Notes under the pieces: model-generated | What the model was told of the DNA's origin: nothing | Databases searched by the model: none | What the model saw: the letters and a program-made list of their open reading frames with translations, nothing else | In this document: positions 15,565 through 60,125 of the stretch, piece after piece | Position numbering within the stretch: the first letter of the stretch is position 1 | Layout: each line of letters begins with the position of its first letter | Source of the DNA: Haematococcus lacustris | Lineage: Eukaryota; Chlorophyta; Chlorophyceae; Chlamydomonadales; Haematococcaceae | Reading direction: 5' to 3' | Assembly (NCBI GenBank): GCA_030144725.1 | Contig: JASKMD010000021.1 | Location: 3,040,277-3,104,276 of the forward strand | DNA length: 64,000 nt | Made by a program: the position numbers and the translations under genes

Positions 15565-18500
15565 GGGTCAGGAGGTGCAGGAGCCCACAGCAGCAGCATC
15601 TGCTGCAGAGCAAGGGTCCCTGGCCGCCGCTGCTGCTGGCAGTGTGGCAGACGGTGGCAGTCAGGCAGCTGACAAGGAGGCAGGGGCAGCAGCAGCAGCA
15701 GCAGCAGGGAGTCCAGCTGCACCCCCCACTGACCCCCTGGCCGCTGGCCCCACCCCGGAGGCCCTGGCCCTGGTGGGGGTGGAGGCTGACGCCACACTGG
15801 CTGCTCAGCCGGAGGTCTCCCCTGACCGCAGCCCCAGCCCCTCAGCTGCGACCCAGCCAGCCCCCACCCCCACCTCCACCTCCACCTCCACCCCGGCGCC
15901 TGCTCCCAGTAAGCCGGGTGTGGCTGCGGCAGAGAAGGAGGCTGCTGCTCCAACAGCGGCGGCGGCTGCTGCGGCGGCGGCGGTGGCTTCAGGCCCTGCT
16001 GCTGGCCCTGCAGCTGCGGCCCTGAAGGGCAAGCGCAGTGTGAAGGAGCTGTGCAAGGCTGCAGACCAAAAGGACGTGCAGGTGAGGCAGGCCAGACTGG
16101 ACACTGCAGGACAGGGGGCGGTGGAGGGGGCAGGGGCAGGGGCAAGGGGGGGGGGGGCAGGGGCAGGGGCAAGGGGGGGGGGGGCAGGGGCAGGGGCAAG
16201 GGGGGGGGGGGCAGGGGCAGGGGCAAGGGGGGGGGGGGCAGGGGCAGGGGCAAGGGGGGGGGGGGCAGGGGCAGGGGCAAGGTGGGGGGGGGCAGGGGCA
16301 GGGGCAAGGGGGGGGGGGGGCAGGGGCAGGGGCAAGGGGGGGGGGGGGCAGGGGCAGGGGCAAGGGGGGGGGGGAGCAGGGGCCACTGCATGTCCTCACC
16401 CGTTCTGAACTCCGTACTGCCCCTCTGCACTTTGGGGTGGGTGGTATGGCGCTGCAGGAAAAATCACTGCACTGCATGCTACAGTCCAGTACAAGTTGGT
16501 ACATAGCACAGCACTGCCTGCTTCAGCGTGATGCAACCCTCTACCTAGTGCCGTGTGAAGTGACATGGTCGGGGCAAGCTGCTGCTGCATCATCGCCTTG
16601 AGCCGCCCTTGCCCACCTGGCCCCTCCCCCCCCCACGCTTTCCACAGGTCAAGAGCTTGTTGGACCCCTTCGCCAAGCCCCCACCCCCCTCCGCCGCCGC
16701 CCCTGCCGCCCCGCCCGCCCCCGCCCCCGCCCCGCCTCCAAAGCCTGCTCGCGCTAGTGGCCCTGCTTCCAAGAGCACCTCCCCCGAGCGCCCCCCCCCA
16801 CCCCCTCCTGTGTCTGACAACTGGGAGGAGGAGGGGGCGGTCAGCGCAGGCCTGCTGGGGGGGGGCGTGGAGGCAGGTCCAGGGGGCAGGGATGCTCAGG
16901 ATGGGATCAAGATCTACAGCCGCGACTTCATGAAGACGCTGGGAGCCAAGCCGCAGTGCTTGGCCAGGCCAGGTGGGACAGGGCAGGGTGGGGGAGGGGG
17001 AGGGGGAGGGGGAGGGGGAGGGGGAGGGGGAGGGGGAGGGGGAGGGGGAGGGGGAGGGGGAGGGGGAGGGGGAGGGGGAGGGGGAGGGGGAGGGGGAGGG
17101 GTGCGCAGCGCTCAGGGCCTGGGGCTGCTCTAGGCCTGATTTGGCCAAGTGAGGTGGCACATGGCATGTGGGTGCAGATGCTGCTTTAGGCAAGCTTGGT
17201 GGCAGTGCTTGCGCCATGTGATCTCACACACACATACACACATGTCAAGGTGCATCGGGCATGTGACCTACCCTTAATGGCCACCAACCTTGTCAACATA
17301 ACCCGACCCGACCTGACCTGACCCAATCTGACTCGACCCGCCCTGACCCTTCGACCCCACTACCCTCTGACTAACCATCTGGCTCACCCCCTGACCCACA
17401 CGCTGCACACATGCCCCATCACTGCCCTGCTCCCCCACCCTTCTCCCCCCCTGCTCTATGTTTTGCAGATTTCCACAAAGATTTTGCATCCTGCCAAGCC
17501 TGCGTCATTGAAGTCATCCGCAAGGAGCCCCTGCCCTTCAGCGCGACCGACAGCCTGGGGGTGGGCGGGGCGCTGCGCATGCACGGCCCCCGCATGGGCC
17601 TGCCTCCTGGCATGGGCCCCGCTGGCCCAGGGGCGATGGGGGGACCCCCCGGAGGTGGTGGCCCCCAGTGGGGCGACCGCAGGCAGGCTGGGCCCATGGA
17701 CCCCCGGTTCCAGGTGTGTCCGGGTGTGACGCAGGTGTGAGAGGGAGTGAGAAGGAGTGAGAGGTGGTTAGGCAGGGTGGCAGGCTGCAAGGTGCATGAA
17801 GACACCCTCCTGAACTCCCTGCCTCATCCTCCCACCTCCACCCACCCTCCTGGCTGTTGACAACCCCTCACTGGCTCACCCTGCTGCTCACCGCGTCCCT
17901 GCCCCTCTGGACCCCCACCCTGCAGGGATGGCTGCTCCCGCTTGCTTTCCCTCTCATTGCCTTTGAAACCATTTCAGGCTGTTATCCCACCACCAGTTGC
18001 TGCCTGCCGGAGCTGCTACTGACCTTTGCCACCACCTGCCCCTGTGCAGGACGCGCGTGGAGGGCGGGGTGGGGTCACTGGCCCCCCTGGCCCTGGAGCA
18101 CGTGGCGCAGTTGGCACGCGTGGCGGGGGCATGGACGACAAGCAATGGGAGCGGCGCGGGCCGGGTGCCGCCGGTGGCATGGCCGCAGGCGGTCGTGGTG
18201 GGTCTGGGGGGCGTGGCGGCGGCATCGGGTCCCTGCACCGTGCAGAGAGTCGGTTTGTGATTGGGGCGGTGCGCGGGGATGACCCGGTGGAGGAGAAGAA
18301 GCAGAAGGAGATCCTGGCGACGCTGAACAAGGTCACGCCCAACACCCTGGAGAAGCTGACGGACCATGTGGGTGGACAAGGGGCCCTGGGGGGGGCTAGG
18401 GTGGGGGATGGGCGATGTGGGTGGCTGAGTGGCTATGCCACTGCCTGGGGGGGTGGGGGCGGGGGAGGGGACGCACTGTGTGCGTGAGTGGCCTCAGAGC

Positions 18501-23709: not shown

Positions 23710-24166
23710 CCTTAGGCGTCCGGGACAAGCACACCGCAAGTCGTCATCTACCTCTGCTATAGAGCCCCGATACGTTTGTTGGCTTGCGGGCTTAGCTTCA
23801 GGGTTTGCTAGGCTACGTTACTCTAGTCACGTGTCATACCGCTGTGACGGATACGACGGATGCTTTGGCATGACGATAGCGCAGTACATAGGCTCACACA
23901 TGCAGGAGGTTTTGTGACAGGTAGCTGCGACAGACCTGAGTTGAAGCGGACTGGCTCGGTTCCGTCACAGCCAACTTGTTTGTTGTCATGATGGCTTGTG
24001 GCATCTTATGAGCCTCCGTACGACCGGTACCTGCCATGCCCAGCGTGTTTGGAGTCCATCAATCGAGAGCATTTATATCCATCCTTCATTAGCGCCCCTT
24101 CCTGACATTCAGGTGTTCCCAACTATTTAAAAATGACAGGAAACCGACCCCTGGTAGTAGGACGGC

Positions 24167-24171
24167 TGTAA
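24167..24171 (+). terminator. TGTAA polyadenylation signal, candidate for eIF4G
   Basis: TGTAA, the usual green-algal signal, 458 nt after the eIF4G stop. It lies inside the left end of the 8.3-kb TIR element (starts 24108), so if used, the host transcript's 3' end is supplied by the element. No closer TGTAA was seen between 23710 and 24166. Confidence -1.
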
Positions 24172-24298
24172 CTCTGCACTCACTGCGCCAAATAATATGC
24201 TAGATGATTCACAATGTAGCCAACCCGGCCAGCTACCTTTCACCCATTTAGAATAGTTATCCACACTCAGGCAAATTAGTAACAGCATTTTTGAGATT

Positions 24299-24567
24299 CA
24301 GAGCCTCGGACTTGGTACATAGTCTAATGAAGGCATTGTAAGATTGGGGGTTGAAACTAAAATTCGTGATTTTGCGCGGTTGGTGAGATACGGCCATGCT
24401 ACAGTACTGTAGAGGTCTACAGTACTGTCGGGGTACCTCGCGAGTACACGAACAGAGCCTCGGACTTGGTACATAGTCTAAAGAAGGCATTGTAAGATCG
24501 GGGGTTGAAACTAAAATTCGTGATTTTGCGCGGTTGGTGAGATACGGCCATGCTACAGTACTGTAGA
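24299..24567 (+). repeat. 154-bp direct duplication next to the first palindrome array
   Basis: CAGAGCCTCGGACTTGGTAC starts at 24299 and again at 24453 with only a few differences (TAATGAAGG/TAAAGAAGG, GATTGGGG/GATCGGGG). Each copy ends in the CTACAGTACTGTAG palindrome, and copy 1 finishes with GGTACCTCGCGAG, a variant of the spacer used in the array that follows. Confidence -1.
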
Positions 24568-25300
24568 CATCTACAGTACTGTAGACATCTACAGTACTGT
24601 AGACATCTACAGTACTGTAGATACCTCGAGGTACCTCGCGAGACCACTTACAGTACAGTAGACATCTACAGTACTGTAGACATCTACAGTACTGTAGACA
24701 TCTACAGTACTGTAGGTACCTCGAGGTACCTCGAGAGACCACTTACAGTACTGTAGACATCCACAGTACTGTAGACATCTACAGTACTGTAGACATCTAC
24801 AGTACTGTAGACATCTACAGTACTGTAGACATCTACAGTACTGTAGACATCTACAGTACTGTAGGTACCTCGAGGTACCTCGAGAGACCACTTACAGTAC
24901 TGTAGACATCCACAGTACTGTAGACATCTACAGTACTGTAGACATCTACAGTACTGTAGACCTCTACAGTACTGTAGACATCTACAGTACTGTAGACATC
25001 TACAGTACTGTAGGTACCTCGAGGTACCTCGAGAGACCACTTACAGTACTGTAGACATCTACAGTACTGTAGACATCTACAGTACTGTAGACATCTACAG
25101 TACTGTAGACATCTACAGTACTGTAGGTACCTCGAGGTACCTCGAGAGACCACTTACAGTACTGTAGACATCTACAGTACTGTAGACATCTACAGTACTG
25201 TAGACATCTACAGTACTGTAGACATCTACAGTACTGTAGTTACCTCGAGGTACCTCGAGAGACCACTTACAGTACTGTAGATGTCTACAGTACTGTCGGG
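24398..25300 (-). repeat. Higher-order array of palindromic 18-bp units, with 31-bp palindromic spacers
   Basis: Basic unit CATCTACAGTACTGTAGA (18 bp) contains the perfect 14-bp palindrome CTACAGTACTGTAG. Blocks of units are separated by a spacer with the perfect 16-bp palindrome CTCGAGGTACCTCGAG followed by AGACCACTTA. Occurrences of AGACCACTTA start at 24641, 24736, 24885, 25034, 25147 and 25260: spacings 95, 149, 149, 113, 113, that is 41 + 18n with n = 3, 6, 6, 4, 4. Sequence identity between units is close to complete, implying recent amplification or homogenisation. Orientation is opposite to the array at 27822-29193. Open frames here (Y-S-T-V-D-V repeats) follow from the 18-bp period and are not genes. 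Confidence -1.
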
Positions 25301-25990
25301 GGACCCTCGCACCTTGTAACATTTAAGAAACACACTACGGAATGCACTACGGCATAGCACAATGCCTTCAAGCACTTCGAAGATTTCGCGGCTTGCCTTG
25401 CACGGAATGACCACCTCACTTGCATTCAAGGCATCCGTGCAACACCCGTGCCTTAGTCGCATCATCGTGTAGCCGGTATTGTAGCGATGGCATTGCACGA
25501 GGTTACCCATACTCGCAGCCACATCTAGCCCATACTCGCAGCCACATACTCGGCAATCAACCTCGCGGCCACACAGCTGGTCCACAGATGGCATCGCACG
25601 AGGTTACCCATACTCGCAGCCACATCTAGCCCATACTCGCAGCCACATACTCGCGGCCACACAACCTCGCGGCCACACAGCTGGTCCAGCAGCGCAGAAG
25701 CATACCTGCGAGGCAGCTCGGTGCGAGGATCTCACCTCGCAGCCCACCTCGCAGCCATTTTCCTCGCAGCCAGCCTCGCAGCCAGTTTCGCAGCCAGCAT
25801 CGCAGCCAGCATCGCAGCCAGCATCGCAGCTAGCCTCGCGGCCAGTTTCCTCGCAACGATTCTCCGCAATGAATCGCAAGCATTGATGCACCAACGCAAG
25901 GCAGGTGCAACGTGTTGTGAGCAGCGAAGAGGCCAGACGGACTATGGTAAGAGCTTAGGACCAAGGTAAGAGCTTAGAAGGAGCTAACAT
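25301..25990. other. Spacer with duplicated CGCAGCCACA phrases; no gene
   Basis: About 90 bp at 25487-25577 (from ATGGCATTGCACGAGG / ACTCGCAGCCACAT) recur at 25581-25690. From 25730 to 25855 a roughly 10-bp unit (CCTCGCAGCC, variant CATCGCAGCC) repeats about a dozen times, giving a spurious Ala/Ser-rich frame. No coding sequence supported. Confidence -1.
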
Positions 25991-27430
25991 TGCGCAGCAT
26001 AGCCCTTAGTATCCAGCCTAACCGCACCTGGTTGCTGCAGGTCTTACAATCACGCCTAGTACCCCCCTAATTACCACCCCCTCCATATCCCCCTCACCGC
26101 CACCACCACCACCACCACCACCACCACCACCACCACCACCATTTCATCACCTCCCACAACGTTCCCACTGTTGCCTCCCTTGTGTTGCAGCCCAGCCCAG
26201 CCCAGCCCAGCCCAGCCCAGCCCAGCCCAGCCCAGCCCAGCCCAACCCTACTCTCCCACCCTGCACTTCCCACTGAGGTGAGGACAAAGGAAGGTGGGTT
26301 GTAATGGAGGGCTGCTACACCTGCCCCTCCATCTGCCAGCTCTACATCTCCCTACTCTATTGGTGAGTGCATCCAGTACCCATGTCCAATGTTTGCTTCC
26401 GTTGACAAATCGTCACACCGTTGCCGCAGGTCTTGTGCGCCTACACCTGAGACTATCAATGCCCCCCCCACTTCTCTCGCCCTCCCCATGGACCTCCCCT
26501 TCCCTTCCCTCCCCTTCCTCCCCTTCCTCCCACACACATATACACCACACCCCAGCAAAAGGTGAGTGCAGGTATGTGGCAACCTGTACCCACCTTAACC
26601 GCTAGCATGCCCCTTGTCCCGCTGCAGGATTGATCGTCACACCCTTCCCCATCCCCTTTTCCTCCCCTTTCCCACGCCCACCACCAACGCCCAGCTTGTC
26701 GTCCCTCCACTTCCACCTCTACCCACCCCCCACTTCCCCCCTCCCCGTCACCTCTCCCCTGACATCCCAGCAGCCAGGAGAAAGCCCACCCCACCCACCC
26801 TCGTCCCACCCCTCCCTTCCCCCTCTCCCTCCCTCTCCCCTCCCATACTTGTCAAGCCTCCTCTTCCCCTCTCCCACCCTTCGATTGACGTGGCATCGCA
26901 ACCCCTGCCACATCCCACCTTCCCTTCCCTACACCCTACACTCCCCACTGCAGTCCCACCCCACTGGCGCATGGGATATGTTGCCTGGTGCGAGCAGGTA
27001 GGAGGCCAGGAGGACCACAAAGGTAAGGCCACGGTGATAGCTAACACAGTGCCCAGCCTGGTCACACTACCGCACGTGTACGCCCCTTGGTTGCAGGTCT
27101 AGTGGGCACCTCCCTTCCACTTCCCTTTCCCCTACACAACCACCCCCTCCCAATTCATCCTCCCCCGCCCCCGCCCCCGCCCCCGCCCCCGCTCCCTCCC
27201 CCGCCCCCACCCATGCCCCCACCCACCCAAACCCATGCCCCCAACCCAACCCACCCCCGCCCAGCCCAACCCGGCTAAGCCTCCCACCTCCCCACCTCCC
27301 GCCTCCCTGCCTACCGCCTCCCCGTCTCCCGCCTCCCTACCTCCCACCTCCCGCCTTCCACATCTACCCCCCCTCCCCGCCTTCACTCTTCCACTCCCCC
27401 CCCCTTTCTAGCAGCAGTCATCCAGCAGCC
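25991..27430 (+). repeat. Four pyrimidine-rich modules with intron-like boundaries
   Basis: Four consecutive modules each run from a GTGAGT- or GTAAGR-containing stretch through CTAAC/CTTAACC-like sequence to (T/C)GCAGG, then an extended C/T-rich tract: CAGG at about 26040, 26430, 26628 and 27096. The tracts contain a (CAC)n run (26097-26141), a CCCAG pentamer array (26190-26238) and CCTCCC repeats (27270-27390). In frame, each module starts Gly-Leu or Gly-Thr and continues Pro/Ser/His-rich. They look like copies of one exon-plus-intron unit, but codon content is only repetitive, so I do not call a gene. Confidence -1.
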
Positions 27431-27467
27431 AAAAGGTAGGTAGGTGCTACAGTGCCCCTACTATATC

Positions 27468-27820
27468 TACTGCTGCTGCCACTGCTGCTGCTGCTGCTGC
27501 GCCCCTGCTGCTGCTGCTGCCCCCCTACTGCTACTGCTGCTGCCCCCCTGCTGCTGCTGCTGCCCCCCTACTGCTGCTGCTGCTGCCCCCCTGCTGCTGC
27601 CCCCCTACTGCTGCTGCTGCTGCCCCCCTGCTGCTGCTGCTGCTGCTGTCCCCCTACTGCTGCTGCTGCTGCTGCCCCCCTGCTGCTGCTGCTGCCCCCC
27701 TGCTGCTGCTGCTGCTGCCCCCCTACTGCTGCTGCTGCTGCCCCCCTACTGCTGCTGCTGCTGCCCCCCTGCTGCTGCTGCCCCCCCCCCCTGCTGCTGC
27801 TGCCACCCATGCTGCTGCTG
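27468..27820 (+). repeat. CTG-repeat blocks separated by C runs
   Basis: About a dozen imperfect units of roughly 30 bp, each several CTG triplets followed by CCCCCCTA or CCCCCCTG. It abuts the start of the large palindrome array. Poly-Leu, poly-Cys/Ala and poly-Gln frames here are repeat artefacts. Confidence -1.
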
Positions 27821-27821
27821 C

Positions 27822-29193
27822 CTACAGTACTGTAGAGGTCCACAGTACTGTAGAGGTCCACAGTACTGTAGAGGTCCACAGTACTGTAGAGGTCCACAGT
27901 ACTGTAGAGGTCCACAGTACTGTAGAATTCCAAAGTACTGTAGAGGTCCACAGTACTGTAGAGGTCCACAGTACTGTAGAGGTCTACAGTACTGTAGAGG
28001 TCCACAGTACTGTAGAGGTCCACAGTACTGTAGAGGTCCACAGTACTGTAGAGGTCCACAGTACTGTAGAGGTCCACAGTACTGTAGAGGTCTACAGTAC
28101 TGTAGAGGTCCACAGTACTGTAGAGGTCCACAGTACTGTAGAGGTCCACAGTACTGTAGAGGTCCACAGTACTGTAGAGGTCCACAGTACTGTAGAGGTC
28201 CACAGTACTGTAGAGGTCCACAGTACTGTAGAGGTCCACAGTACTGTAGAGGTCCACAGTACTGTAGAGGTCCACAGTACTGTAGAGGTCCACAGTACTG
28301 TAGAGGTCCACAGTACTGTAGAGGTCCACAGTACTGTAGAGGTCCACAGTACTGTAGAGGTCCACAGTACTGTAGAGGTCCACAGTACTGTAGAGGTCCA
28401 CAGTACTGTAGAGGTCCACAGTACTGTAGAGGTCCACAGTACTGTAGAGGTCCACAGTACTGTAGAGGTCCACAGTACTGTAGAGGTCCACAGTACTGTA
28501 GAGGTCCACAGTACTGTAGAGGTCCACAGTACTGTAGAGGTCCACAGTACTGTAGAGGTCCACAGTACTGTAGATGTCCACAGTACTGTAGAGGTCCACA
28601 GTACTGTAGAGGTCCACAGTACTGTAGAGGTCCACAGTACTGTAGAGGTCCACAGTACTGTAGAGGTCCACAGTACTGTAGAGGTCCACAGTACTGTAGA
28701 GGTCCACAGTACTGTAGAGGTCCACAGTACTGTAGAGATCCACAGTACTGTAGAGGTCCACAGTACTGTAGAGGTCCACAGTACTGTAGAGGTCCACAGT
28801 ACTGTAGAGGTCTACAGTACTGTAGAGGTCCACAGTACTGTAGAGGTCCACAGTACTGTAGAGGTCTACAGTACTGTAGAGGTCCACAGTACTGTAGAGG
28901 TCCACAGTACTGTAAAGGTCCACAGTACTGTAGAGGTCCACAGTACTGTAGAGGTCCACAGTACTGTAAAGGTCCACAGTACTGTAGAGGTCCACAGTAC
29001 TGTAGAGGTCCACAGTACTGTAGAGGTCCACAGTACTGTAGAGGTCTACAGTACTGTAGAGGTCCACAGTACTGTAGAGGTCCACAGTACTGTAGAGGTC
29101 TACAGTACTGTAGAGGTCCACAGTACTGTAGAGGTCCACAGTACTGTAAAGGTCCACAGTACTGTAGAGGTCCACAGTACTGTAGAGGTCCAC
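27822..29193 (+). repeat. Tandem array of about 76 copies of an 18-bp palindromic unit
   Basis: Unit ACAGTACTGTAGAGGTCC, 1372 bp in all. The core ACAGTACTGT is a perfect palindrome, extended to 14 bp where the flanking base is T (CTACAGTACTGTAG). Almost all units are identical; rare variants are GGTCTAC for GGTCCAC (around ten), TAAAGG, TAGATG, TAGAGATC, and one TAGAATTCCAAAG near 27925. Because 18 is a multiple of three, frames are open along the whole array on both strands; they are not genes. The unit is the reverse complement of the one at 29642-29749. Confidence -1.
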
Positions 29194-29229
29194 TTGTTGG
29201 CCGGCACCCATCCACTCTTTACTCAGCAG

Positions 29230-29360
29230 TTGGCCCTCACAACTGGTTTGCGGTAGATGGGGCTAAGCTCACACACCTGCTGGTGCCCTTCTTCCCGCAC
29301 AAGGAGGGTGGGGGAGACATGTACTTTGTTCCATTCAGCAACAAATCCATGGACAAGTAG
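29230..29360 (+). CDS. Terminal exon of an unidentified protein inside the 8.3-kb element (partial)
   Basis: Right after the palindrome array, an acceptor-like ACTCAGCAG is followed by an open frame that does not look repetitive: GPHNWFAVDGAKLTHLLVPF, then FPHKEGGGDMYFVPFSNKSM and DK-stop (TAG at 29358-29360). A TGTAA signal lies 64 nt downstream (29424-29428), so this has the form of a real gene 3' end. Upstream exons are not visible; if they exist they are beyond or displaced by the array. Product unknown; probably an element-encoded or captured gene. Confidence -1.
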
Positions 29361-29423
29361 GCAACAGGGGCATGCATGAGTCACAGACATGTTGAATGAC
29401 CTTGCAATGTCGGTCAATCATGG

Positions 29424-29428
29424 TGTAA
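29424..29428 (+). terminator. TGTAA polyadenylation signal
   Basis: Within GGTGTAAGT, 64 nt after the TAG of the partial exon at 29230-29360. Confidence -1.
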
Positions 29429-29641
29429 GTATGAATGGCTCTTACAAGCTCCTTCGTCTATTACTTTGCGCGCCAGCACACGACATGATTCATTCATACA
29501 TCTCATAAACACATCTCATGACCACAACTGTCAGCCGCCAAATCCCATGTGCTTGTACTAGTCGCCAAGACAAGCAGAGTCACCATGAAAAGCAAAGGAA
29601 CGATTGAAATATATGACCTCTAAAAACAGCTTAAGGTTTAC

Positions 29642-29749
29642 CTACAGTACTGTGGACCTCTACAGTACTGTGGACCTCTACAGTACTGTAGACCTCTACA
29701 GTACTGTAGACCTCTACAGTACTGTAGACATCTACAGTACTGTAGGTAC
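29642..29749 (-). repeat. Third palindrome array, six units, opposite orientation to the large array
   Basis: Units read GGACCTCTACAGTACTGT, the reverse complement of the 27822-29193 unit; the last unit carries the GACAT spacer of the first array and ends in GTAGGTACCTC, the same block end as at 24398-25300. Thus this small array bridges both types. Confidence -1.
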
Positions 29750-30124
29750 CTCCACTCCAACTGCTCACACACTCAGAAATTCAACACGCGCCAAGTGTGG
29801 TTGGACTCGCAAAGACAATCCGAGGCGAACCCCATCAAAAAACTACCCCCCTAGGATGTCGAATATTCGCGCTAATTTGCCTGTGTGCAGTCAGTAGGCC
29901 GTGCACAGCAAAGCATCAAAGTTAGTGATTCAAATTTGAGCCGTTGCGGAGCATGCAGTCATCGCTACGACCGCCCGCATCGCTTAGGCTGCTCTACACG
30001 AGCATGCGCGTCGGCAGCAGCAGTCGGATCGGAAAGCGGTTGCGGAAATGTGGCACGGAGGCAGTTGGCAGGTGCGGTTGGGAGAGGTGGCCACTACAAC
30101 CTTAGTCTAACTATGTCTCGTGTG

Positions 30125-30859
30125 TCACCGCTTGCGCTTGGCAGCTGTCTGGGGCTGCCCCAACCCAGCAGGTGTGGTACGCTTGCGGAGCGTGCAGCCA
30201 GGAGCTGGCGCTTGAGCCATAGCAGCCTGCCCCTCGGTGGCGATTGCAGCTAGTGCCAACTGATACATGTGGCCGAAATCAGGTGATGCAGGCGGCCCTT
30301 GCTGCTGGGGTGGCTGCTGTGGGGGTGGCTGTGGGGGTGGGTGGGGCTGTGGTGGGGGCACACCAGCTGACACAACTCTGTTGTACCCTGCTGTTGTTGC
30401 TGCTGCTGCCACCCGTTGCTGGCTTGCATGGTCCCCCACATTCACCACAACCACCCCCACACTGCAAGCAGCTGCTGTGGCTTTGCGTACGGCTGTGGCT
30501 GGTGCCCTGGCTTCGGCTGCAGCCACCTCATGCAGCCGCACCGCAGCGCGAAGCTTAGGCAACTGAAGCGCGAAGTCGTGCACATCTATGTTGTTGAGGG
30601 TGGACCTATGTGTGTGCAGGGACATATGCTCCAGGAGCGCAGGCAGCTCCATGAAGCGGCCAACTCCATGCTTCAGCAGCTGTAGCAAGGACTCCACCGG
30701 GGCATTGGAGGTGGGACATGCCAGAAAGTACACCTCGAGGTGGAGGCGCAACTCGGTGCTGCATGGGCTGCCCTCAGCCATGGCCTGGATGTCCTGTTGG
30801 AACTGACGCCACGTGCAATGAGGGTCCCACACACCCAGGTCACTCTGCCCCTCGTCCAT
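30125..30859 (-). CDS. Element-encoded protein of unknown function, 244 residues
   Basis: Open from ATG at 30859 to TGA at 30127-30125; frame stays open upstream to 30922 without ATG, with a tandem AKVVQCA duplication. The N-terminal part (GVWDPHCTWRQFQQDIQAMA, then LRLHLEVYFLACPTSNAPVE, LLKHGVGRFMELPALLEHM) looks like a folded helical domain. The middle is Ala-rich, then a Pro/Gln-rich linker (residues about 170-195), and the C terminus ends KRKR, a possible nuclear localisation signal. It lies in the 8.3-kb TIR element next to a coiled-coil frame on the same strand, separated by a MITE; both may derive from one gene. I do not recognise the family and no DDE-type triad is evident. Confidence -1.
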   Translation of the reverse strand: MDEGQSDLGVWDPHCTWRQFQQDIQAMAEGSPCSTELRLHLEVYFLACPTSNAPVESLLQLLKHGVGRFMELPALLEHMSLHTHRSTLNNIDVHDFALQLPKLRAAVRLHEVAAAEARAPATAVRKATAAACSVGVVVVNVGDHASQQRVAAAATTAGYNRVVSAGVPPPQPHPPPQPPPQQPPQQQGPPASPDFGHMYQLALAAIATEGQAAMAQAPAPGCTLRKRTTPAGLGQPQTAAKRKR

Positions 30860-30919
30860 GCGCAGGGCGGCACACTGCACCACCTTGGCGGCACACTGCA
30901 CCACCTTGGCAGCTGGATT

Positions 30920-31265
30920 CACTCCTACAAATTAATCCCTGCGTCCGTCCCTGCGTGTTACCAACCTTGTCTGATCGGGCTGAAATTTTGATAGATGGTA
31001 ATTTACAAAAAACTAAACATATTTTGCAAGAAAAATATAATGAAAAAATCAACAGCTGTTGCGCTGTGGCCCGCAACTTATCCCTGCACTCATCCCTGCA
31101 CTCTAGCCACAGGGCCACAGCGCAGCCGCCTTTGATTTTATTAAAATCTTTCTACTGAAAAATATGTTTTATATTCTGCAAACTACCATCTATCAAATAT
31201 CCAGCCCGATCGGACAAGGTCGGTCAACACGCAGGGACGGACGCAGGGATTAATTTGTAGGAGTG
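30920..31265. mobile_element. MITE-like 346-bp inverted-repeat element nested in the 8.3-kb element
   Basis: Ends are inverted repeats of about 40 bp, starting CACTCCTACAAATTAATCCC on the left and finishing with its inverse on the right. The interior is AT-rich with internal repeats of TCCCTGCACTCATCCCTGCA that echo the ends, plus TTGCGCTGTGGCC/GGCCACAGCGCA as a second inner inverted repeat. Only TT is shared immediately outside (30918-30919, 31266-31267), so target duplication is weak. It separates the minus-strand frames 31560-31266 and 30859-30125. Confidence -1.
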
Positions 31266-45445: not shown

Positions 45446-45614
45446 TGTTACGTGACCATGCTGAGTAAAGTAGCATGCGGATCTGAGATCTCTACTCCCA
45501 TGTGAGAAAGTGTTAGTGGTGAGGTGTTCTGAGGCTGGGTCCGATTCCCAGGTAGATGGACTACGCCCTGATCTACGATGGATACCTCAGAACACTATAG
45601 CCGCTAACGCAACA
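45446..45614 (+). repeat. 5' LTR, 169 bp
   Basis: TGTTACG...CGCAACA, the standard TG...CA ends with a 7-bp imperfect inverted repeat. Unusually short for a chromovirus LTR. Identical to 51229-51397. It presumably contains the promoter for the genomic RNA; no clear TATA box seen. Confidence -1.
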
Positions 45615-45615
45615 G

Positions 45616-45633
45616 TGGTTCCGGCCGATGCCC
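45616..45633 (+). other. Candidate primer-binding site
   Basis: One base after the 5' LTR, TGGTTCCGGCCGATGCCC starts with the TGG expected opposite a tRNA CCA end. The matching tRNA (3' end GGCCGGAACCA) was not identified; it is not the initiator-Met type commonly used by plant elements. Confidence -1.
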
Positions 45634-45842
45634 TGAGCCGGACTGGGTGTGTTTGAGCCGAGCGACAGAGAGCGTCCTGGTTGGCGTGTGGAAGCACGGT
45701 TGTATTGAAGCGACTGTAGTGCGCCAGTGTAGTGCGCCAGTGTTTGTAAAAGTCGCGAGGCGACGGCGGAGTGCGGACGCTGAGTGGCTAGTGAGCCTGT
45801 GTGGCTAGTGAGCCTGCGTGCGGAAGACCTTTGTGCGGTACA

Positions 45843-47150
45843 ATGACCCAGTCGGCTGAGGGAGATTCTGCGAGAGCGGCGATGGAAAGGGGCAATAGTC
45901 CGGAGGACTTGCAAAGAACTGTGGAGGCCTTGCAAGCTCAGTTGGCCGCAAAAGAGCGGGAGTTGCAAGAGTCCCGCGAGCAAGGGAAGCGTAGTGGTGG
46001 CCCAGGAAGTAGTGGGCGTGAGGCGATTGAGCGCCGAGAGGCACATTCTGGAAGCGCGGCCGGGGGTGGTGCAAGCCAGCATGGAGCGCTTGCAAACCTT
46101 GGCGGAGCTGGCCTGGGACTCCCAGTGGGAGAGGCAAGTGGTCGGTCGCTGCCAGGAGCACCAGCGGCACAGCATGTGGTCAGAACGAACGTGAGCCTGC
46201 CTGAGGCTTGGAAGATTGATGATGTGCTGCGGAATAGGGACTTTGAGTCTTATTTCTGGCTTGTGGGTCAATGGTGCCGTGCAACGCAGCAGCCACTGGT
46301 GGCGGGAGTGCTGCAGGCGCTGAGCGGAGACCTGAAGGCCGCCGTGGTACAGCTGGTGAGCAGCTACAGGCAACAAGGCAAAGATCTTACTGATGCGGAG
46401 CTAGAAGCGTGGCTTAGGAGGGCCACTGGGTGCACCAATCAGAATAATGAGGCGGATCTGATGCAGAAGCTGGTGGATCGGGAGTATCACCAGAAGGGAG
46501 CGGAGTTGATGAGTTACTGTCTGCAGTTTTCGCTGATGTCCATGCGCTTGCATCGTTTGCCCCAGGACCTCCTGTGTATGTACTTCATCGCTGGCCTGAA
46601 ACCTGAGCTGAAGCGAGAGTGTGCGACTATGCCCGATGGGAAGCGATGGGAGTCGTTGGATGCCTTGCTTGCTTTTGCACGTGGGCGTGATGTTGCTGCG
46701 CGAGCTGCCAAAACTTCTGTGCGTGCTGTCACTGCACCATTGGCTTCATCCCTGCCTGACGACGATGGGTTTGATGGAGGGCCCGGAGTGGCCGTGTTTG
46801 CGGGGCGAGGGCGCAGCTTCAGTGGAAGGAGCAATGGGCGCTCACGAAGCCGTTCTGCTGATGGTGGGCGTACAGGGCAGGGTCGTTTGAATGAGCGACT
46901 GGACCGGTTCCAGCCGGCGGACCTGCGACGCCGTGATGAGGGTCGAGGGCACAACAGAGGCCGCAGTCCAAGCCGGGACGCACGCCATGTGTCGTTCGCA
47001 GACGACCGGGACAGTGCCAAGAGGCACAAAGGGTCCAGCCAGGACCGTGAGACGTGCTACGAGTGTGGAGGGCAAGGGCACTTCGCCAAGGACTGTGCTA
47101 ACAAGCGGTGGAACCGTGGTGGCCGTGGTGACTACAATGAGGGTCAATAG
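45843..47150 (+). CDS. gag: Gag polyprotein
   Basis: ATG at 45843 (frame open upstream to 45801 without ATG), 435 residues ending at TAG 47148-47150. An N-terminal Glu/Gln-rich helical part (EDLQRTVEALQAQLAAKERE) precedes a retrotransposon gag capsid-like domain (about residues 120-280; YFWLVGQWCRATQQPL, AELMSYCLQFSLMSMRLHRL, DLLCMYFIAGLKPELKRE). An Arg/Ser/Gly-rich linker leads to a CCHC zinc knuckle CYECGGQGHFAKDC (405-418), which binds the genomic RNA. Gag forms the virus-like particle in which reverse transcription occurs. Only 15 codons separate the stop from the first long stretch of Pol, in the same frame without further stops, so suppression of the UAG would make a Gag-Pol fusion directly. 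Confidence -1.
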   Translation: MTQSAEGDSARAAMERGNSPEDLQRTVEALQAQLAAKERELQESREQGKRSGGPGSSGREAIERREAHSGSAAGGGASQHGALANLGGAGLGLPVGEASGRSLPGAPAAQHVVRTNVSLPEAWKIDDVLRNRDFESYFWLVGQWCRATQQPLVAGVLQALSGDLKAAVVQLVSSYRQQGKDLTDAELEAWLRRATGCTNQNNEADLMQKLVDREYHQKGAELMSYCLQFSLMSMRLHRLPQDLLCMYFIAGLKPELKRECATMPDGKRWESLDALLAFARGRDVAARAAKTSVRAVTAPLASSLPDDDGFDGGPGVAVFAGRGRSFSGRSNGRSRSRSADGGRTGQGRLNERLDRFQPADLRRRDEGRGHNRGRSPSRDARHVSFADDRDSAKRHKGSSQDRETCYECGGQGHFAKDCANKRWNRGGRGDYNEGQ

Positions 47151-50100
47151 GGCTTTGCCTGGTGGGAACGAGGTGCAGACCTGCCAGGACCGCCTTTGTA
47201 TGAGCCTATACCTGTGTTTGATGAGAGATCAACATGTAAGAAGCTCATCTTGGCTACCGCACCGAATGGGACTCTCAATGACAAGACTGAGACGCTACAG
47301 CTACCCTTCATGTATGTGGGCCGCTTTGGAGGCAGGACATGCCAGATTATGATGGACACTGGCGCTACCTTCAGCATCATCAGTGATCAGTGGCTGCAAA
47401 AGCACAAGATAGACCCATCTGATGCTACGTTGGAGAAGGAAGCCATGAGGCCAACACCAGTATTGACTGCCAACAATGAGCGTGTGGTGCTGAATGAGAA
47501 GAGGACAGGCCTGCTGGAGATTCAGAAGAGCAAGACTATCGTAATGGCCAGAGTCATGCCCAGAGTAATTGAAGGTGTCGACTTAATCCTGGGATCGGAC
47601 TGGCTGTTCGCCAACGACGTGGTGATGAAACCGAAGCACGGGGTGTGCACGTTATTGTCGCCTGAGGGCAAACCGGTGAACCTGCTGGCACTTCGCTCGA
47701 AACACCTGCCATCTTTTGAAGCCGTAGCTCAGGCTGCCGTAGCCTCAGGAGGGCTAGTCGAGCCAGCGGAACCGCTCAGCGTGGGACAGACGGCGAGGCT
47801 GCTTCGCAAGGGATGCCGCAGCTTGCTGCTATTGGTGCAGCCTGGCAGTGAAAGTGACACAGAGGGCTGGCACAAGGGGAGCCTGGCTGCTGCAGTGGCA
47901 GGCTGCAAGGAGAGCAGTGGAAAGGATAGACCTGAGCTGGTCACAGATGCAGAGCTGCAGGCTGTGCTAGATGAGTACTCTGATGTGTTCCAGGACATGC
48001 CGCCAGGTCTGCCCCCAGACAGGGGTGTAGGGCACACCATCAGGATGGAGTCTGATGCTCCGCCACCATACAAGCGGCCTTACAAGCTGAGCCCCAGGGA
48101 GGAGGCTGAGGTCAAGAGACAGGTGTCAGAGCTGCAAGCCAGGGGGCTGATAGAGCCCAGCGGTAGCCCCTATGGAGCCCCTGTGCTGTTTGTGGAGAAG
48201 AAGGACGGGTCGTTGAGGATGTGTATTGACTACAGAGCACTAAACAAACTGACGGTGAAAGACAGATATCCCCTACCGAGGATTGATGACCTCTTTGACA
48301 AGTTGGCTGGCAAGAAAGTGTTTAGCTCCCTTGATCTCCAATCCGGGTACCATCAAATCAGGATCACAGAGGCGGACCGGCCCAAGACAGCATTCCTGAC
48401 GCCCATGGGGCAGTTCCAGTTTAAAGTGTTGTGCTTCGGGCTTACAAACGCTCCTGCTACCTTCCAACGAGTCATGAACAACGTGTTTCGACCTCTGATC
48501 AACAAGTCTGTGCTGGTTTACATTGATGACATCCTGGTCATGAGCAATACTGCTGAGGAGCATGTGCGACATCTGAAAGAGGTGCTGGAGCTCATGAGAC
48601 AACACAAGCTCTACGCCAAACGCTCCAAATGCGAGTTCAACAAAACAGAGCTGGCGTTCCTCGGCCATATTGTGGGCGAACATGGCATTGCTGTCGACCC
48701 AGCAAAAGTGAAAGTGGTCCGGGAGTGGCACGTTCCGCGCAACCTGAAGGATCTGCAGGCCTTTTTGGGGTTGGCGAACTATTTTCGGCGCTTCATTCCT
48801 AACTTCAGCGCTATCGCTGCGCCGCTGACCGACCTGACCAGCAAGACGGCTGCGGCACAGTTCGACTGGCAAAAGTTCGGGGGGGCACATTTGAAAGCAT
48901 TTAATGGCCTGAAAGACGCCCTGTGCTCTGCTCCTGTGTTGGCGCTGCCTGACTTCACCAAGCCCTTTGTGGTGTGCACTGACGCGTCGCTGGTGGGCAC
49001 TGGAGCAGTGCTGCTGCAAGAAGGCAGACCCATAGCTTACACCAGCAAAAAGCTGTCACCACCTGAAACAAGGTACTCTACAGGAGACCAGGAGCTGCTA
49101 GCCATCATCAGGGCTGTGAGGGAATGGAGGTGCTACCTGGATGGAGCTGTGGATGTTACAATACAAACTGATCACAACCCCCTAATCTACCTTCAAACGC
49201 AAGCAAACCTGTCAAGGCGGCAGACACGGTGGATGGAGGAGCTGTCCCGTTACAAGTATGAAATCAGATACCATCCTGGTGCGGACAATGTGGCTGATCC
49301 CATCAGCCGCAACCCGGCGCTCAGCATGCCTGCCACAGAGAGCTGCCCGGTGCTACTGCTGGTGCCTGGACATGACGGTGCAGTGCTGGCTGCCACCACC
49401 CGCCGCACAGCAGCTGAGCTCCGCAAGATGGCTGAGAGAGAGCAGGCTGTGGCCAGGGAGAGGGCCTATGAGGCTGGCAAGCTGACCCCGCCTGCTGACA
49501 TGGCTGCTGGCACGCCTAGGGGGCTGCAGCCAGGTGGGGGGGAAGCCCTGCGGCAGGACACACAACAACAAGAGGCCAGTGACGGGTCAGACCCCACGAC
49601 GCTGCTGCAAGCAGTCAGGCGGGCCTACGGGACAGACAAGCGGTTTGACGAGGCTGCCTTCACCTCAAAGCTACACCGGCTAGAGGGGCTGTGGCTAACA
49701 GAGCGTGGCCAGGTGGTGGTGCCTAATGATGAGAAGCTGAGGAGGAGAGTGATACACACCATGCACGATGCCAAGTCTGCGGGTCACTTGGGCATGACAA
49801 AGACCCTTGAGCAAGTAACACGCTATTTTGTCTGGCACGGTGTGTCAGAGGCTGTCAAGCACTACGTGCGCACCTGCCACTCGTGCCAACTAAACAAGTC
49901 CAGCGCCCAGAAGCCCGCTGGCAAGCTACAGCCGCTGCCCATCCCCTTGAGGCCTTGGGGCTCCGTGTCGCTGGATCTCATTGTGAAACTACCTGCAAGC
50001 GGGCCAGCCAAGTATGATTCAATTCTGGTGATTGTGGACCGGCTGACCAAAATGGTACACTTGGCCAGAACCTGGGAGCGCATGAATGCCGTGCAATATG

Positions 50101-51101
50101 CCAAACTCTTTGTCGACAACGTGTTTCGGCTGCATGGCTGGCCAGACAGCATTGTGAGCGACAGAGGACCTAACCTGAACAACAACAGGTTCTTTGTTGA
50201 GCTGGCGGCGCTACTCCAGGTGGACCTGGACCTGTCAAGTGCTTACCACCCCCAGACGGATGGTCAGACGGAACGCATGAACCGGGTGATAGAGGAGATG
50301 CTAAGGCATTACATCAGGCCCGACCAGAAGGACTGGGCGGAACACTTACCCCTCGTCGAGTTCGCCATCAACAATGCCAAGCAGGAGTCCACCCGTTGCA
50401 CGCCCTTCTACCTAAACTACGGCTACCATCCGCGAGTGGCTGAGCTGCTGGACCTGCCCCAGAGAGTGCCGCAGGCGCACGAGTTCGTGGCCAATGCGAG
50501 GCAGGCGGTGGAGCAGGCCAGGCAGTGCCTAGCCCGAGCGCAGAAGCGCATGAAGGCCTATCAGGATACTAAGCGGCGTGACGCGGTGTTTGAACCTGGC
50601 GACATGGTGTTGTTGAGCACACAAAACATGAGGGGCAGAGTGGGCCAGCCTGGTGCCAGAAAGCTGAAGCCACGCTATGTCGGTCCTTTCCGAGTTGAGT
50701 ACATGGTGGGCAGAGCAGCAGTGAAGCTGGACCTGCCTGAGGAGTGGTCCCGGATCCACCATGTGTTTCATGTGTCCCTTGTGAAGCCTTACAGGACCTA
50801 CGATGCCTCTGACCAGGTGCCTGGGCACGCAGGCCCACCCCCACTGCAATGGCTAGATGGAGAGCCAGAGTACAAGGTGGAGAAGGTGGTGGATCACCGG
50901 CTGGCCAAGAGCCAAGGCAAGCGGGGTGGCAAGCCCAAGAAGAGACAGTTGGAGTTCCTGGTCAAGTGGCAGGGCCATGGGGACGAGCACAACACGTGGG
51001 AGACCAGGTCACAGCTGGTGGGATGCCATGAGTTGTTGACTGCGTATCTACAAAAGCTCGGTTTGGAGTCTGATATGGTCGAGGCTGAGGCGGTGGGCTG
51101 A
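47151..51101 (+). CDS. pol: Pol polyprotein: protease, RT, RNase H, integrase, chromodomain
   Basis: Open from the codon after the gag TAG to TGA at 51099-51101. It has no ATG near its start (the first usable one is far inside), which favours expression by readthrough. Counting from TTG 47196: aspartic protease DTGA at 54-57; RT with YIDD at 442-445; RNase H with CTDASLVGTG at 594; integrase zinc-binding HDAKSAGH...CHSC from 857; integrase core Asp in LDLIV, Asp in SDRGPN (989) and Glu in QTERMN (1026); chromodomain at about 1225-1285 (EYKVEKVVDHR, LEFLVKWQGHGDEHNTWE), which would bind methylated histone tails and steer integration. The spacing between the last two catalytic acids is 36 rather than 35 because of an extra Asn in the NLNNNRFF loop. 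All catalytic residues are present. Confidence -1.
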   Translation, partial: GFAWWERGADLPGPPLYEPIPVFDERSTCKKLILATAPNGTLNDKTETLQLPFMYVGRFGGRTCQIMMDTGATFSIISDQWLQKHKIDPSDATLEKEAMRPTPVLTANNERVVLNEKRTGLLEIQKSKTIVMARVMPRVIEGVDLILGSDWLFANDVVMKPKHGVCTLLSPEGKPVNLLALRSKHLPSFEAVAQAAVASGGLVEPAEPLSVGQTARLLRKGCRSLLLLVQPGSESDTEGWHKGSLAAAVAGCKESSGKDRPELVTDAELQAVLDEYSDVFQDMPPGLPPDRGVGHTIRMESDAPPPYKRPYKLSPREEAEVKRQVSELQARGLIEPSGSPYGAPVLFVEKKDGSLRMCIDYRALNKLTVKDRYPLPRIDDLFDKLAGKKVFSSLDLQSGYHQIRITEADRPKTAFLTPMGQFQFKVLCFGLTNAPATFQRVMNNVFRPLINKSVLVYIDDILVMSNTAEEHVRHLKEVLELMRQHKLYAKRSKCEFNKTELAFLGHIVGEHGIAVDPAKVKVVREWHVPRNLKDLQAFLGLANYFRRFIPNFSAIAAPLTDLTSKTAAAQFDWQKFGGAHLKAFNGLKDALCSAPVLALPDFTKPFVVCTDASLVGTGAVLLQEGRPIAYTSKKLSPPETRYSTGDQELLAIIRAVREWRCYLDGAVDVTIQTDHNPLIYLQTQANLSRRQTRWMEELSRYKYEIRYHPGADNVADPISRNPALSMPATESCPVLLLVPGHDGAVLAATTRRTAAELRKMAEREQAVARERAYEAGKLTPPADMAAGTPRGLQPGGGEALRQDTQQQEASDGSDPTTLLQAVRRAYGTDKRFDEAAFTSKLHRLEGLWLTERGQVVVPNDEKLRRRVIHTMHDAKSAGHLGMTKTLEQVTRYFVWHGVSEAVKHYVRTCHSCQLNKSSAQKPAGKLQPLPIPLRPWGSVSLDLIVKLPASGPAKYDSILVIVDRLTKMVHLARTWERMNAVQYAKLFVDNVFRLHGWPDSIVSDRGPNLNNNRFFVELAALLQVDLDLSSAYHPQTDGQTERMNRVIEEMLRHYIRPDQKDWAEHLPLVEFAINNAKQESTRCTPFYLNYGYHPRVAELLDLPQRVPQAHEFVANARQAVEQARQCLARAQKRMKAYQDTKRRDAVFEPGDMVLLSTQNMRGRVGQPGARKLKPRYVGPFRVEYMVGRAAVKLDLPEEWSRIHHVFHVSLVKPYRTYDASDQVPGHAGPPPLQWLDGEPEYKVEKVVDHRLAKSQGKRGGKPKKRQLEFLVKWQGHGDEHNTWETRSQLVGCHELLTAYLQKLGLESDMVEAEAVG

Positions 51102-51216
51102 TGTGAGGAGGCCATGAAAGGAACTCAGACACCTAGCGCTAGTGTGGGCGCGAGTGACGGCACAATGTGCCTGAGCGGGGCAACACCACGGTGGTCAGCT
51201 GAGTGCAGCTGAGCCA

Positions 51217-51228
51217 GGTGGGGGGGAA
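51217..51228 (+). other. Polypurine tract
   Basis: AGGTGGGGGGGAA ends directly at the first base of the 3' LTR; apart from one T it is all purine, as needed to prime plus-strand DNA synthesis. Confidence -1.
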
Positions 51229-51397
51229 TGTTACGTGACCATGCTGAGTAAAGTAGCATGCGGATCTGAGATCTCTACTCCCATGTGAGAAAGTGTTAGT
51301 GGTGAGGTGTTCTGAGGCTGGGTCCGATTCCCAGGTAGATGGACTACGCCCTGATCTACGATGGATACCTCAGAACACTATAGCCGCTAACGCAACA
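51229..51397 (+). repeat. 3' LTR, 169 bp
   Basis: Same sequence as the 5' LTR over all 169 bases, followed by the TTTTG target duplication at 51398-51402. Confidence -1.

Positions 51398-56825: not shown

Positions 56826-60125
<3,300 letters not shown>

Follow-up and report, generated by a model that had tools for sequence, protein, structure and literature searches.

Three palindromic arrays in Haematococcus as parts of a single DNA transposon insertion

A single DNA transposon insertion carries all three blocks of an 18-bp palindromic unit in a 64,000-nucleotide stretch of Haematococcus lacustris DNA, here called the window; the insertion belongs to a large transposon family in the nuclear genome of Haematococcus pluvialis/lacustris. 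The transposition anatomy of the array-bearing element is directly visible, and we infer that the dyad arrays bind protein. The probable explanation is that these are the subterminal arrays of a CACTA-like cut-and-paste transposon, bound by dimers of a transposon-encoded protein, with block 2 possibly having a self-regulatory role.

The core of the unit, ACAGTACTGT, is found in 116 exact copies in the window, every one of which lies within the three blocks (35 at 24401-25296, 75 at 27824-29183 and 6 at 29644-29743), where about 0.06 would be expected by chance in 64 kb (64000/4^10). Two further units, at 24650 and 27932, carry one mismatch each and bring the cores to 118 overall. The first-pass annotation, which had described more than 100 near-identical units in three blocks and about 76 copies in block 2, was confirmed, block 2 containing 75 exact cores and one variant. 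The step in block 2 is 18 bp everywhere save for one of 36 bp at the mutated unit 27932, and block 1 has steps of 18 and 41 bp together with one of 59 bp (mutated unit 24650) and one of 136 bp (the duplication). The CTCGAGGTACCTCGAG spacer palindrome occurs five times, in block 1 only, on exact search of the window, and the recurrence previously given for it (95, 149, 149, 113, 113) was recovered with the same steps. The commonest linker is ACAT in block 1, AGGT in block 2 (72 of 75) and ACCT in block 3. Neither the terminal repeats that bound all three blocks nor the 154-bp direct duplication in the block 1 region had been noticed in the first pass.

Table 1. Features of the insertion, in window coordinates
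Feature	Position	Strand	Basis or remark
Complete transposon insertion, 5,624 bp, non-autonomous copy	24264..29887	+	Sharp ends common to other copies; empty sites
Target site duplication CA, left copy	24262..24263	.	Empty-site comparison
Target site duplication CA, right copy	29888..29889	.	Empty-site comparison
Left terminal inverted repeat CACTCAGGCAAATTAG, 16 bp	24264..24279	+	End comparison
Right terminal inverted repeat CACACAGGCAAATTAG on minus strand	29872..29887	-	End comparison
Direct duplication (154 bp) taking in left subterminal DNA and the array's first units	24299..24582	+	Period 154, 1.8 copies, 96% matches
Block 1, left subterminal array, 35 exact cores, linker mostly ACAT, 41-bp steps with CTCGAGGTACCTCGAG spacer	24401..25296	+	
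Interior, partly or wholly common to L020, L023, L024, L026, el2, L089 and L090	25408..27458	+	
CTG-rich repeat adjoining block 2 on the left	27470..27821	+	
Block 2, internal array, 75 exact cores and one variant	27822..29193	+	Like array intronic in el1 and L091
Transposase-like gene, last-exon remnant with stop codon	29192..29360	+	Match to 11.9-kb copy
Block 3, right subterminal array, 6 cores, last core ending 144 bp from right end	29642..29745	+	
Host dispersed repeat interrupted by the transposon	24109..30892	.	Host DNA at 24109-24263 and 29890-30892

The element has the termini CACTCAGG...CCTGTGTG, with a 16-bp terminal inverted repeat, CACWCAGGCAAATTAG. When the flanks were joined with one CA removed, they matched uninterrupted host-repeat copies across the junction at all 40 scored loci, which were drawn from 1,959 first-look candidates, with 96-99% identity, and the four empty sites inspected base by base were all free of gaps. 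These sites read ...ttatcca/gtcagtagg (ttatcta in L086), against ...ttatcCA[element]CAgtcagtagg in the window. The host repeat shares 99.3% identity over 1,158 bp with two of the loci (L084 and L085), unbroken across the insertion point. The window copy has lost most of the transposase-like gene and is non-autonomous. Its last-exon remnant aligns at 91.7% over 444 bp with the 3' end of that exon in an 11.9-kb copy, a stretch that takes in DNA beyond the stop, and the interior at 25408-27458 appears intron-like and of low complexity by eye and gave no match to the transposase-like P0001.

The family terminal inverted repeat is a 16-bp sequence, CAC(T/A)CAGGCAAATTAG, and exact ends number 638 and 656 genome-wide, 1,294 altogether, with none for the reversed-pattern control. 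Among 100 ends listed, 62 make 31 convergent pairs of less than 20 kb and 38 are without a partner within 20 kb in the pairing used; in each of the 27 pairs of less than 13 kb, one end is of the CACTC form and the other of the CACAC form. A 2-bp target duplication flanks each of the 15 complete copies checked, which were selected for both ends being intact, and a 3-bp duplication flanks none. Both end arrays are present in all nine copies that were read through, the first left core lying at nt 138 in eight of them (175 in L088) and the last right core ending 144 nt from the right end in eight (136 in L091). The left-end arrays are regular 18-bp tandem arrays of 12-47 units, and many copies have a third, internal array. 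As the arrays occupy nearly fixed places near both ends, they belong to the anatomy of a transposon and not to a free-standing chromosome structure, so that the free-standing array of unknown kind which the first pass implied is not supported and a DNA transposon family takes its place.

The genome-wide search for the unit that had been recommended in the first pass found 33,277 core dimers and none with the reversed control. Among the 100 of these dimers listed, which fall in 8 regions of C1, every region adjoins an end of the transposon family, with the nearest dimer 122-836 bp from an exact end. In viral contigs the dimer pattern was met in 10 contigs, at a single palindromic place in each (both strands) and never as an array, and a literature search for the core letters gave, among the matches listed, no title on algal repeats. 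A palindromic array that lacked an explanation is now assigned to a defined family of mobile elements in an industrial, astaxanthin-making alga.

Minisatellite arrays might also expand within a transposon by replication slippage and do no work, and this we regard as rather unlikely here. Array length and unit make-up certainly differ between copies. Even four copies with the transposase, which agree at 99.55-99.74% across a neighbouring 1.56 kb, carry different array variants, and a CACTA element with a satellite array in it has been reported (PMC8978399). However, slippage of idle repeats sits poorly with the near-fixed distance of the arrays from both ends, with the concentration of variation between arrays on two non-palindromic bases and with the two smallest copies (1,309 and 1,598 bp), which retain both end arrays and consist of ends plus these arrays, with no other match of at least 60 bp. 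Block 2 is absent from these two copies, and for this block such hitch-hiking could still hold. The four near-identical copies with differing arrays fit a fast array turnover, in keeping with the expansion or conversion that had been read from the homogeneity of the units. Overall, the copies range from 1.3 to 12.3 kb and place very unequal dyad arrays beside closely similar ends, a series that suits the question of how many subterminal sites a transposase needs.

Linker letters 1 and 4, for the most part A and T, extend CTACAGTACTGTAG to a 16-bp palindrome, TCTACAGTACTGTAGA, and this conserved dyad is exact in 39 of 45 run consensuses. The palindromic nature of the units stands as first described, but the dyad reaches 16 bp and not just "up to 14 bp". 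Similarly, the opposite directions of the blocks can be seen, with a polarity contrast like that of block 1 versus block 2 in other copies too, but since the dyad covers linker letters 1 and 4 the "opposite orientation" rests on only two bases per unit. Although the letters ACAGTACTGTA are constant in all 45 run consensuses, the runs stem from few elements and six of the letters, AGTACT, are constant by construction because the runs were seeded on them; core constancy could partly stem from array homogenisation as well. Variation between arrays is concentrated mainly on two non-palindromic bases, the two positions outside the dyad carrying a base other than the most frequent one in 42% and 60% of runs, and within arrays the T preceding the core varies considerably (34% in 294 units; C in block 2 of the window). 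Folded as a single strand, five units have only a slight advantage over shuffles, of which 5 in 200 did as well (z -2.17). Cruciform extrusion seems unlikely for so short a dyad.

One conserved 16-bp palindrome per unit would, to judge from the sequence, suit the dimeric DNA-binding protein that the first-pass annotation had envisaged, although no separate DNA-binding protein was identified. In the transposon explanation the element would move by cut and paste, with blocks 1 and 3 serving as cis-acting subterminal sites for dimers of a transposon-encoded protein, and the cutting machinery probably binds near the element ends, where the arrays sit. The bound protein may help to bring the ends together, much like TNPA on the subterminal motifs of En/Spm. 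TNPA recognises the subterminal repeats, and these act in cis to determine excision and transposition (PMC2613891). The number of units would drift through slippage or unequal exchange, whilst the need for binding, it is proposed, preserves the 16-bp dyad. Block 2 lies inside the gene and may give this protein a means of controlling its own gene.

Four terminal-repeat pairs of about 12 kb were found on C2, of which the two that were read are el1, the 11.9-kb copy with the gene, and el2, which has the window interior and Gypsy-like ORFs inside its internal array. In el1 the gene is divided into seven exons bordered by GT..AG, its frame stays open over 932 aa, and the counterpart of block 2 sits in intron 4; the copy also has a second ORF, of 509 aa. 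In L091 an array lies between the same two exons, and no match to P0001 was found there before residue 348. The long C-terminal region of P0001 has 33 matching loci, 31 of them without a stop; for the upstream long exon all seven matching loci have stops inside the aligned stretch, which crossing of a splice border may explain. The earlier view that no coding explanation works is supported by the position of the internal array between two exons in two longer copies. A coding repeat or an assembly artefact has a next to negligible probability. Several reading frames are open through block 2, as expected of any 18-bp repeat without stops, but the internal array of el1 lies between splice sites, the same layout occurs at other loci and the 33,277 genomic dimers contrast with none in the reversed control. 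The assembly, of strain SAG 192.80, was made from HiFi reads with a mean length of 16.6 kb (PMC10400597), and an artefact, which the first pass had named as grounds for refutation, is very unlikely because such reads exceed the 5.6-kb element and unrelated loci share its layout.

An improbable alternative is that the arrays act as RNA, with a long hairpin in the block 2 transcript feeding small-RNA silencing or affecting the splicing of the transposase intron. For a 540-nt piece of block 2 the folding energy is -288.7 kcal/mol, the shuffle mean being -196.9 (n=100; z -14), and both el1 and L091 have their internal array in an intron, but such folding is expected of any array of palindromic units, and the presence and positions of blocks 1 and 3 would go unexplained.

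At the curated cut-offs neither Pfam nor NCBIfam gives a match for the transposase-like protein, and an AlphaFold model of P0002 reaches a pLDDT of only 32 (35 for P0006); its enzymatic role hence rests on genetic context. A protein search with one 286-aa exon gave no match, in a search where a length filter left out full-length relatives. Transposase_21 (PF02992) matched neither the spliced 932-aa protein nor P0001 nor the genome, and 14 control genomes were silent too. P0001 has a C(2)C motif at residues 361 and 364, after a conserved ADTPAR stretch. Within residues 251-760 no C(2)C is followed by H(3-4)H, an arrangement present in 100 of 2,000 shuffles, and later H(3-4)H motifs occur at 772 and 804.

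Among green algae, Jordan of Volvox is a non-autonomous DNA transposon that likewise has short terminal repeats, but it is 1.6 kb long and makes a 3-bp duplication. The Haematococcus family resembles the CACTA/EnSpm elements (En/Spm, Tam1, Tgmt) in its short CAC..GTG terminal repeats (definition in PMC12730594), in the repeated subterminal motifs at both ends of the nine copies read through, and in having a large multi-exon gene with deletion derivatives. Palindromes are also formed by the subterminal repeats of soybean Tgmt, 2 on the left and 12 on the right (PMC2613891). Unlike classical En/Spm, which makes a 3-bp target duplication, the family makes one of 2 bp; each of its units forms a near-perfect 16-bp dyad on its own, repeated in tandem at a regular 18 bp, an extra array lies in the transposase intron, and the PF02992 match is missing, as in the control genomes. 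Jozin and other CACTA elements with subTIR tandem repeats share mirrored end repeats and a satellite array inside the element, whereas the passages on those arrays (PMC8978399) mention neither dyads nor an intronic position.

The CMCT clade offers further likenesses, namely the CA..TG termini seen in most cases and target duplications of 2-5 bp (PMC12730594), the Haematococcus value being 2 bp in all 15 copies, as well as the C(2)C motif of P0001. Transposases of the clade carry C(2)C and H(3-4)H between the second D and the last E (PMC12730594); in P0001 no H(3-4)H after C(2)C was found within residues 251-760, the stretch searched. A tentative possibility is a new CMCT-type lineage, in which one 16-bp dyad serves as a shared address at the ends and in the transposase intron and limits transposase output; the protein bound to the intronic array, or a hairpin RNA, would limit the transposase as copies accumulate, and the transposase would, on sequence grounds, fall outside current Pfam models. 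Plavaka elements may likewise have 2-bp target duplications, and a weak Pfam similarity to them exists over 35 residues (PF18759, E 0.047, 13.3 bits), below the cut-off of 26.3 bits. Their termini are TGT..ACA or CATCA..TGATG (PMC12730594) and not those of the Haematococcus family, and neither the termini nor the PF18759 score points to membership of Plavaka. The unclassified transposase bears on the diversification of CACTA-like elements in green algae.

No Photo_RC (psbA/psbD-type) gene was found in the assembly, in a search whose control was positive in 1 of 14 genomes, and the assembly is therefore probably without the plastid genome. GC-rich repeats, many of them palindromic, abound in the organelle DNA of this species (PMC7235400), and it is conceivable, if highly improbable, that the nuclear palindromes are relatives of these repeats spread by the same route; the nuclear units, however, move inside a terminal-repeat transposon with target duplications.

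The three palindromic arrays of the window, left (block 1), internal (block 2) and right (block 3), are all parts of one element, a transposon insertion of 5,624 bp at 24264-29887. When the array-masked window was compared with the eight 10-kb regions surrounding array clusters on contig C1, matches started at about 24260 and stopped at about 29890, and at L026, another genomic copy, the full order of block 1, interior, block 2 and block 3 is repeated. The transposon ends are sharp, with CACTCAGGCAAATTAG at the left boundary and CTAATTTGCCTGTGTG at the right one. A perfect 2-bp target duplication is found in all 15 complete copies examined (the window, L026, L057/58, nine pairs from the end list, el2, L088 and L091), and a 3-bp duplication in none of them. 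Joined with one CA removed, the window flanks match at 96-99% across the junction in all 40 loci scored out of 1,959 first-look candidates, and the junction is free of gaps in the four inspected base by base. The transposon is therefore one that has moved, and the match of its flanks to uninterrupted loci places the insertion within a copy of another dispersed repeat. A 268-aa open frame on the minus strand (30125-30931), for which no Pfam match was found, may be part of this host repeat.

Within the window the core ACAGTACTGT, the heart of the 18-bp unit, occurs exactly 116 times, divided as 35, 75 and 6 among the three blocks, and a scan of the 64 kb found no exact core outside them. The three-block layout described in the first-pass annotation is thus borne out, as are its spacings, the 41-bp step, the second (spacer) palindrome and the linker polarity, all of which match the window sequence. 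A second minisatellite, of CTCGCAGCCA-type units, lies within the transposon interior at 25506-25845, and the same stretch is found in other copies.

The constancy of the dyad was assessed in 45 runs of at least five units (566 units from 13 loci, with several runs per element). The consensus ACAGTACTGTA is identical in all 45, although seeding of the runs on AGTACT leaves six of its letters unable to vary by construction. The first of the four linker letters is A in every run and the fourth is T in 44, so the unit amounts to the palindrome TCTACAGTACTGTAGA, 16 bp long, and two further bases. This dyad is exact in 39 of the 45 consensuses; in the other six, the T preceding the core is replaced by C (three), the G following it by A (two) or linker letter 4 is changed (one). 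At the two positions that are not part of the dyad, 60% and 42% of runs carry a letter other than the commonest. In a second count of 294 units, phased solely from adjacent units whose cores are exact, variation amounts to 0-4% at the ten core letters, to 4, 50, 31 and 6% at linker letters 1-4, and to 34% at the T ahead of the core, which is C in block 2 of the window and in other arrays; the units are not independent because the arrays copy themselves.

The geometry of the end arrays is nearly fixed within the family. Nine copies were read through (the window, el1 at L057/58, el2 at L077/78, L026, L087, L088, L089, L090 and L091), and both end arrays are present in every one, with 12-47 units on the left and 3-6 on the right. 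In eight copies the first left core begins at position 138, the exception being L088 at 175; on the other side, the last right core stops 144 bp short of the element's end in eight copies and 136 bp short of it in L091. Among block 1 linkers ACAT leads in every copy, though sometimes with less than half of the units (10 of 24 in L087), whereas internal-array linkers mostly end in GT (AGGT, ATGT, GGGT, GTGT), with ATGT at 15 of 28 and ATAT at 9 in L026. Right-array linkers are mixed, ACAT or ACCT being commonest in most copies and ACAT absent from L088. The polarity between blocks 1 and 2 hence recurs as a family trait, with exceptions.

The window spans 3040277-3104276 of contig C100 in an assembly that comprises 308 Mb in 597 contigs. 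For Haematococcus pluvialis SAG 192.80, sequenced with PacBio HiFi reads of mean length 16.6 kb, transposable elements are reported to make up 50.8% of the genome (PMC10400597). The end pattern CACWCAGGCAAATTAG has 638 + 656 genomic matches and its reversed-pattern control has none. Pairing neighbours among 100 ends listed from these gave 31 convergent pairs closer than 20 kb and left 38 ends without a partner. All 27 listed pairs below 13 kb join a T-type (CACTC) to an A-type (CACAC) end, as do three of the four above 13 kb, the other (16.3 kb) being T-T. Genome-wide, adjacent cores (the core dimer) were located at 33,277 places and the spacer palindrome at 3,252. The search for arrays outside transposon copies covered the C1 matches listed: 100 core dimers form eight C1 regions, the closest dimer in each lying 122-836 bp from an exact end, and none of the nine spacer clusters is farther than about 1.6 kb from a CACTC end. 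One of the eight regions, L022, has four array clusters and looks rearranged.

A transposase-like gene is carried by el1 (11,921 bp), in which seven exons with GT..AG borders, placed by the present authors, give an open frame of 932 aa and block 2 sits in intron 4. Its protein shares 89% identity with P0001 (QJQ45_009822) over the first 152 residues searched; by eye, the two gene models differ at intron 1 and the C-terminus. The long C-terminal region of P0001 scored a match at no fewer than 33 loci, 31 of them free of stops, and its upstream long exon at no fewer than seven, all with stops within the aligned stretch; the el1 upstream exon is open and is not among the matches listed for the latter. 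In L079-L082 the array lies upstream of the gene match and an exact right end follows at equal distance in each. In L091 an array occupies the same position between exons that it has in el1, and there is no match to P0001 ahead of residue 348. Against el1, L079-L082 give dN/dS values of 0.46-0.53 (7-8 synonymous and 14-15 replacement changes), which hints at constraint on the gene, short of proof. Of the nine proteins found, eight go by the name of hypothetical protein in Haematococcus lacustris; the remaining one, P0006, derives from a contig of 1,220 bp that bears the label Bosea and is probably algal contamination. The 11.9-kb copy has a second long open frame of 509 aa (L057:1509-3035, minus strand), which shares 91% identity with a hypothetical protein from Haematococcus; no Pfam match exceeds the cut-off, and an HxD...H...R pattern is, by eye only, reminiscent of 2-oxoglutarate dioxygenases.

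Two miniature copies, L087 and L088, retain about 110-130 bp at the left and 135 bp at the right besides their arrays. With arrays masked, neither has a further match of at least 60 bp to the window or the 11.9-kb elements, and thus block 2 and the gene are missing from two complete copies. With both end arrays in place, the two are natural test pieces for what the arrays do. One dyad per 18 bp, at an almost constant offset from each end, would suit a dimeric protein, which we infer may act at the end arrays and do the job of known subterminal-repeat binders such as TNPA of En/Spm. The subterminal repeats of soybean Tgmt likewise form palindromes (PMC2613891). Autoregulation is a possible role for block 2; alternatively, it could act as a long RNA hairpin, in keeping with a folding z of -14, but a similar fold is expected of any such array.

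PMC12730594 describes a CMCT clade whose termini and duplication length agree with those seen here. In contrast, EnSpm has a 3-bp duplication and the termini of Plavaka (PMC12730594) are different. For the transposase-like protein, neither Pfam nor NCBIfam gave a match above cut-off. The transposon would thus appear to work like a CACTA element, and no superfamily is assigned. Among the Haematococcus publications listed on palindromic repeats, on the genome and its transposable elements, and on CACTA, no title or abstract opening describes the family.

Features of the window and the two miniature copies
Feature	Location	Length	Remarks
GGGAGG hexamer arrays, long	1262-1640, 16986-17101		outside transposon
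Interrupted host repeat	24109-24263, 29890-30892		99.3% identity to L084/L085
Remnant of transposase-like gene	29192-29360		3' end of last exon, nothing else kept
Gypsy-type LTR retroelement with chromodomain	45446-51397		Pfam RVT_1, RNase H, integrase zinc-binding, Chromo
Delta-aminolevulinic acid dehydratase open frame	59072-59698		PF00490 match; tetrapyrrole-pathway gene
L087	contig C11	1,598 bp	both end arrays, target duplication
L088	contig C11	1,309 bp	both end arrays, target duplication

The PF00490 gene places the window in gene-bearing nuclear DNA. On the organelle side, a Photo_RC gene was not found in the assembly (the control was positive in one genome). The 169-bp repeats at the two ends of the Gypsy-type retroelement are identical, so it is probably a recent insertion. 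Reverse-transcriptase-like open frames were also seen by eye at about 1100-7700 of L077, in reverse orientation within el2, where a Gypsy-like retroelement has apparently inserted into the internal palindromic array.
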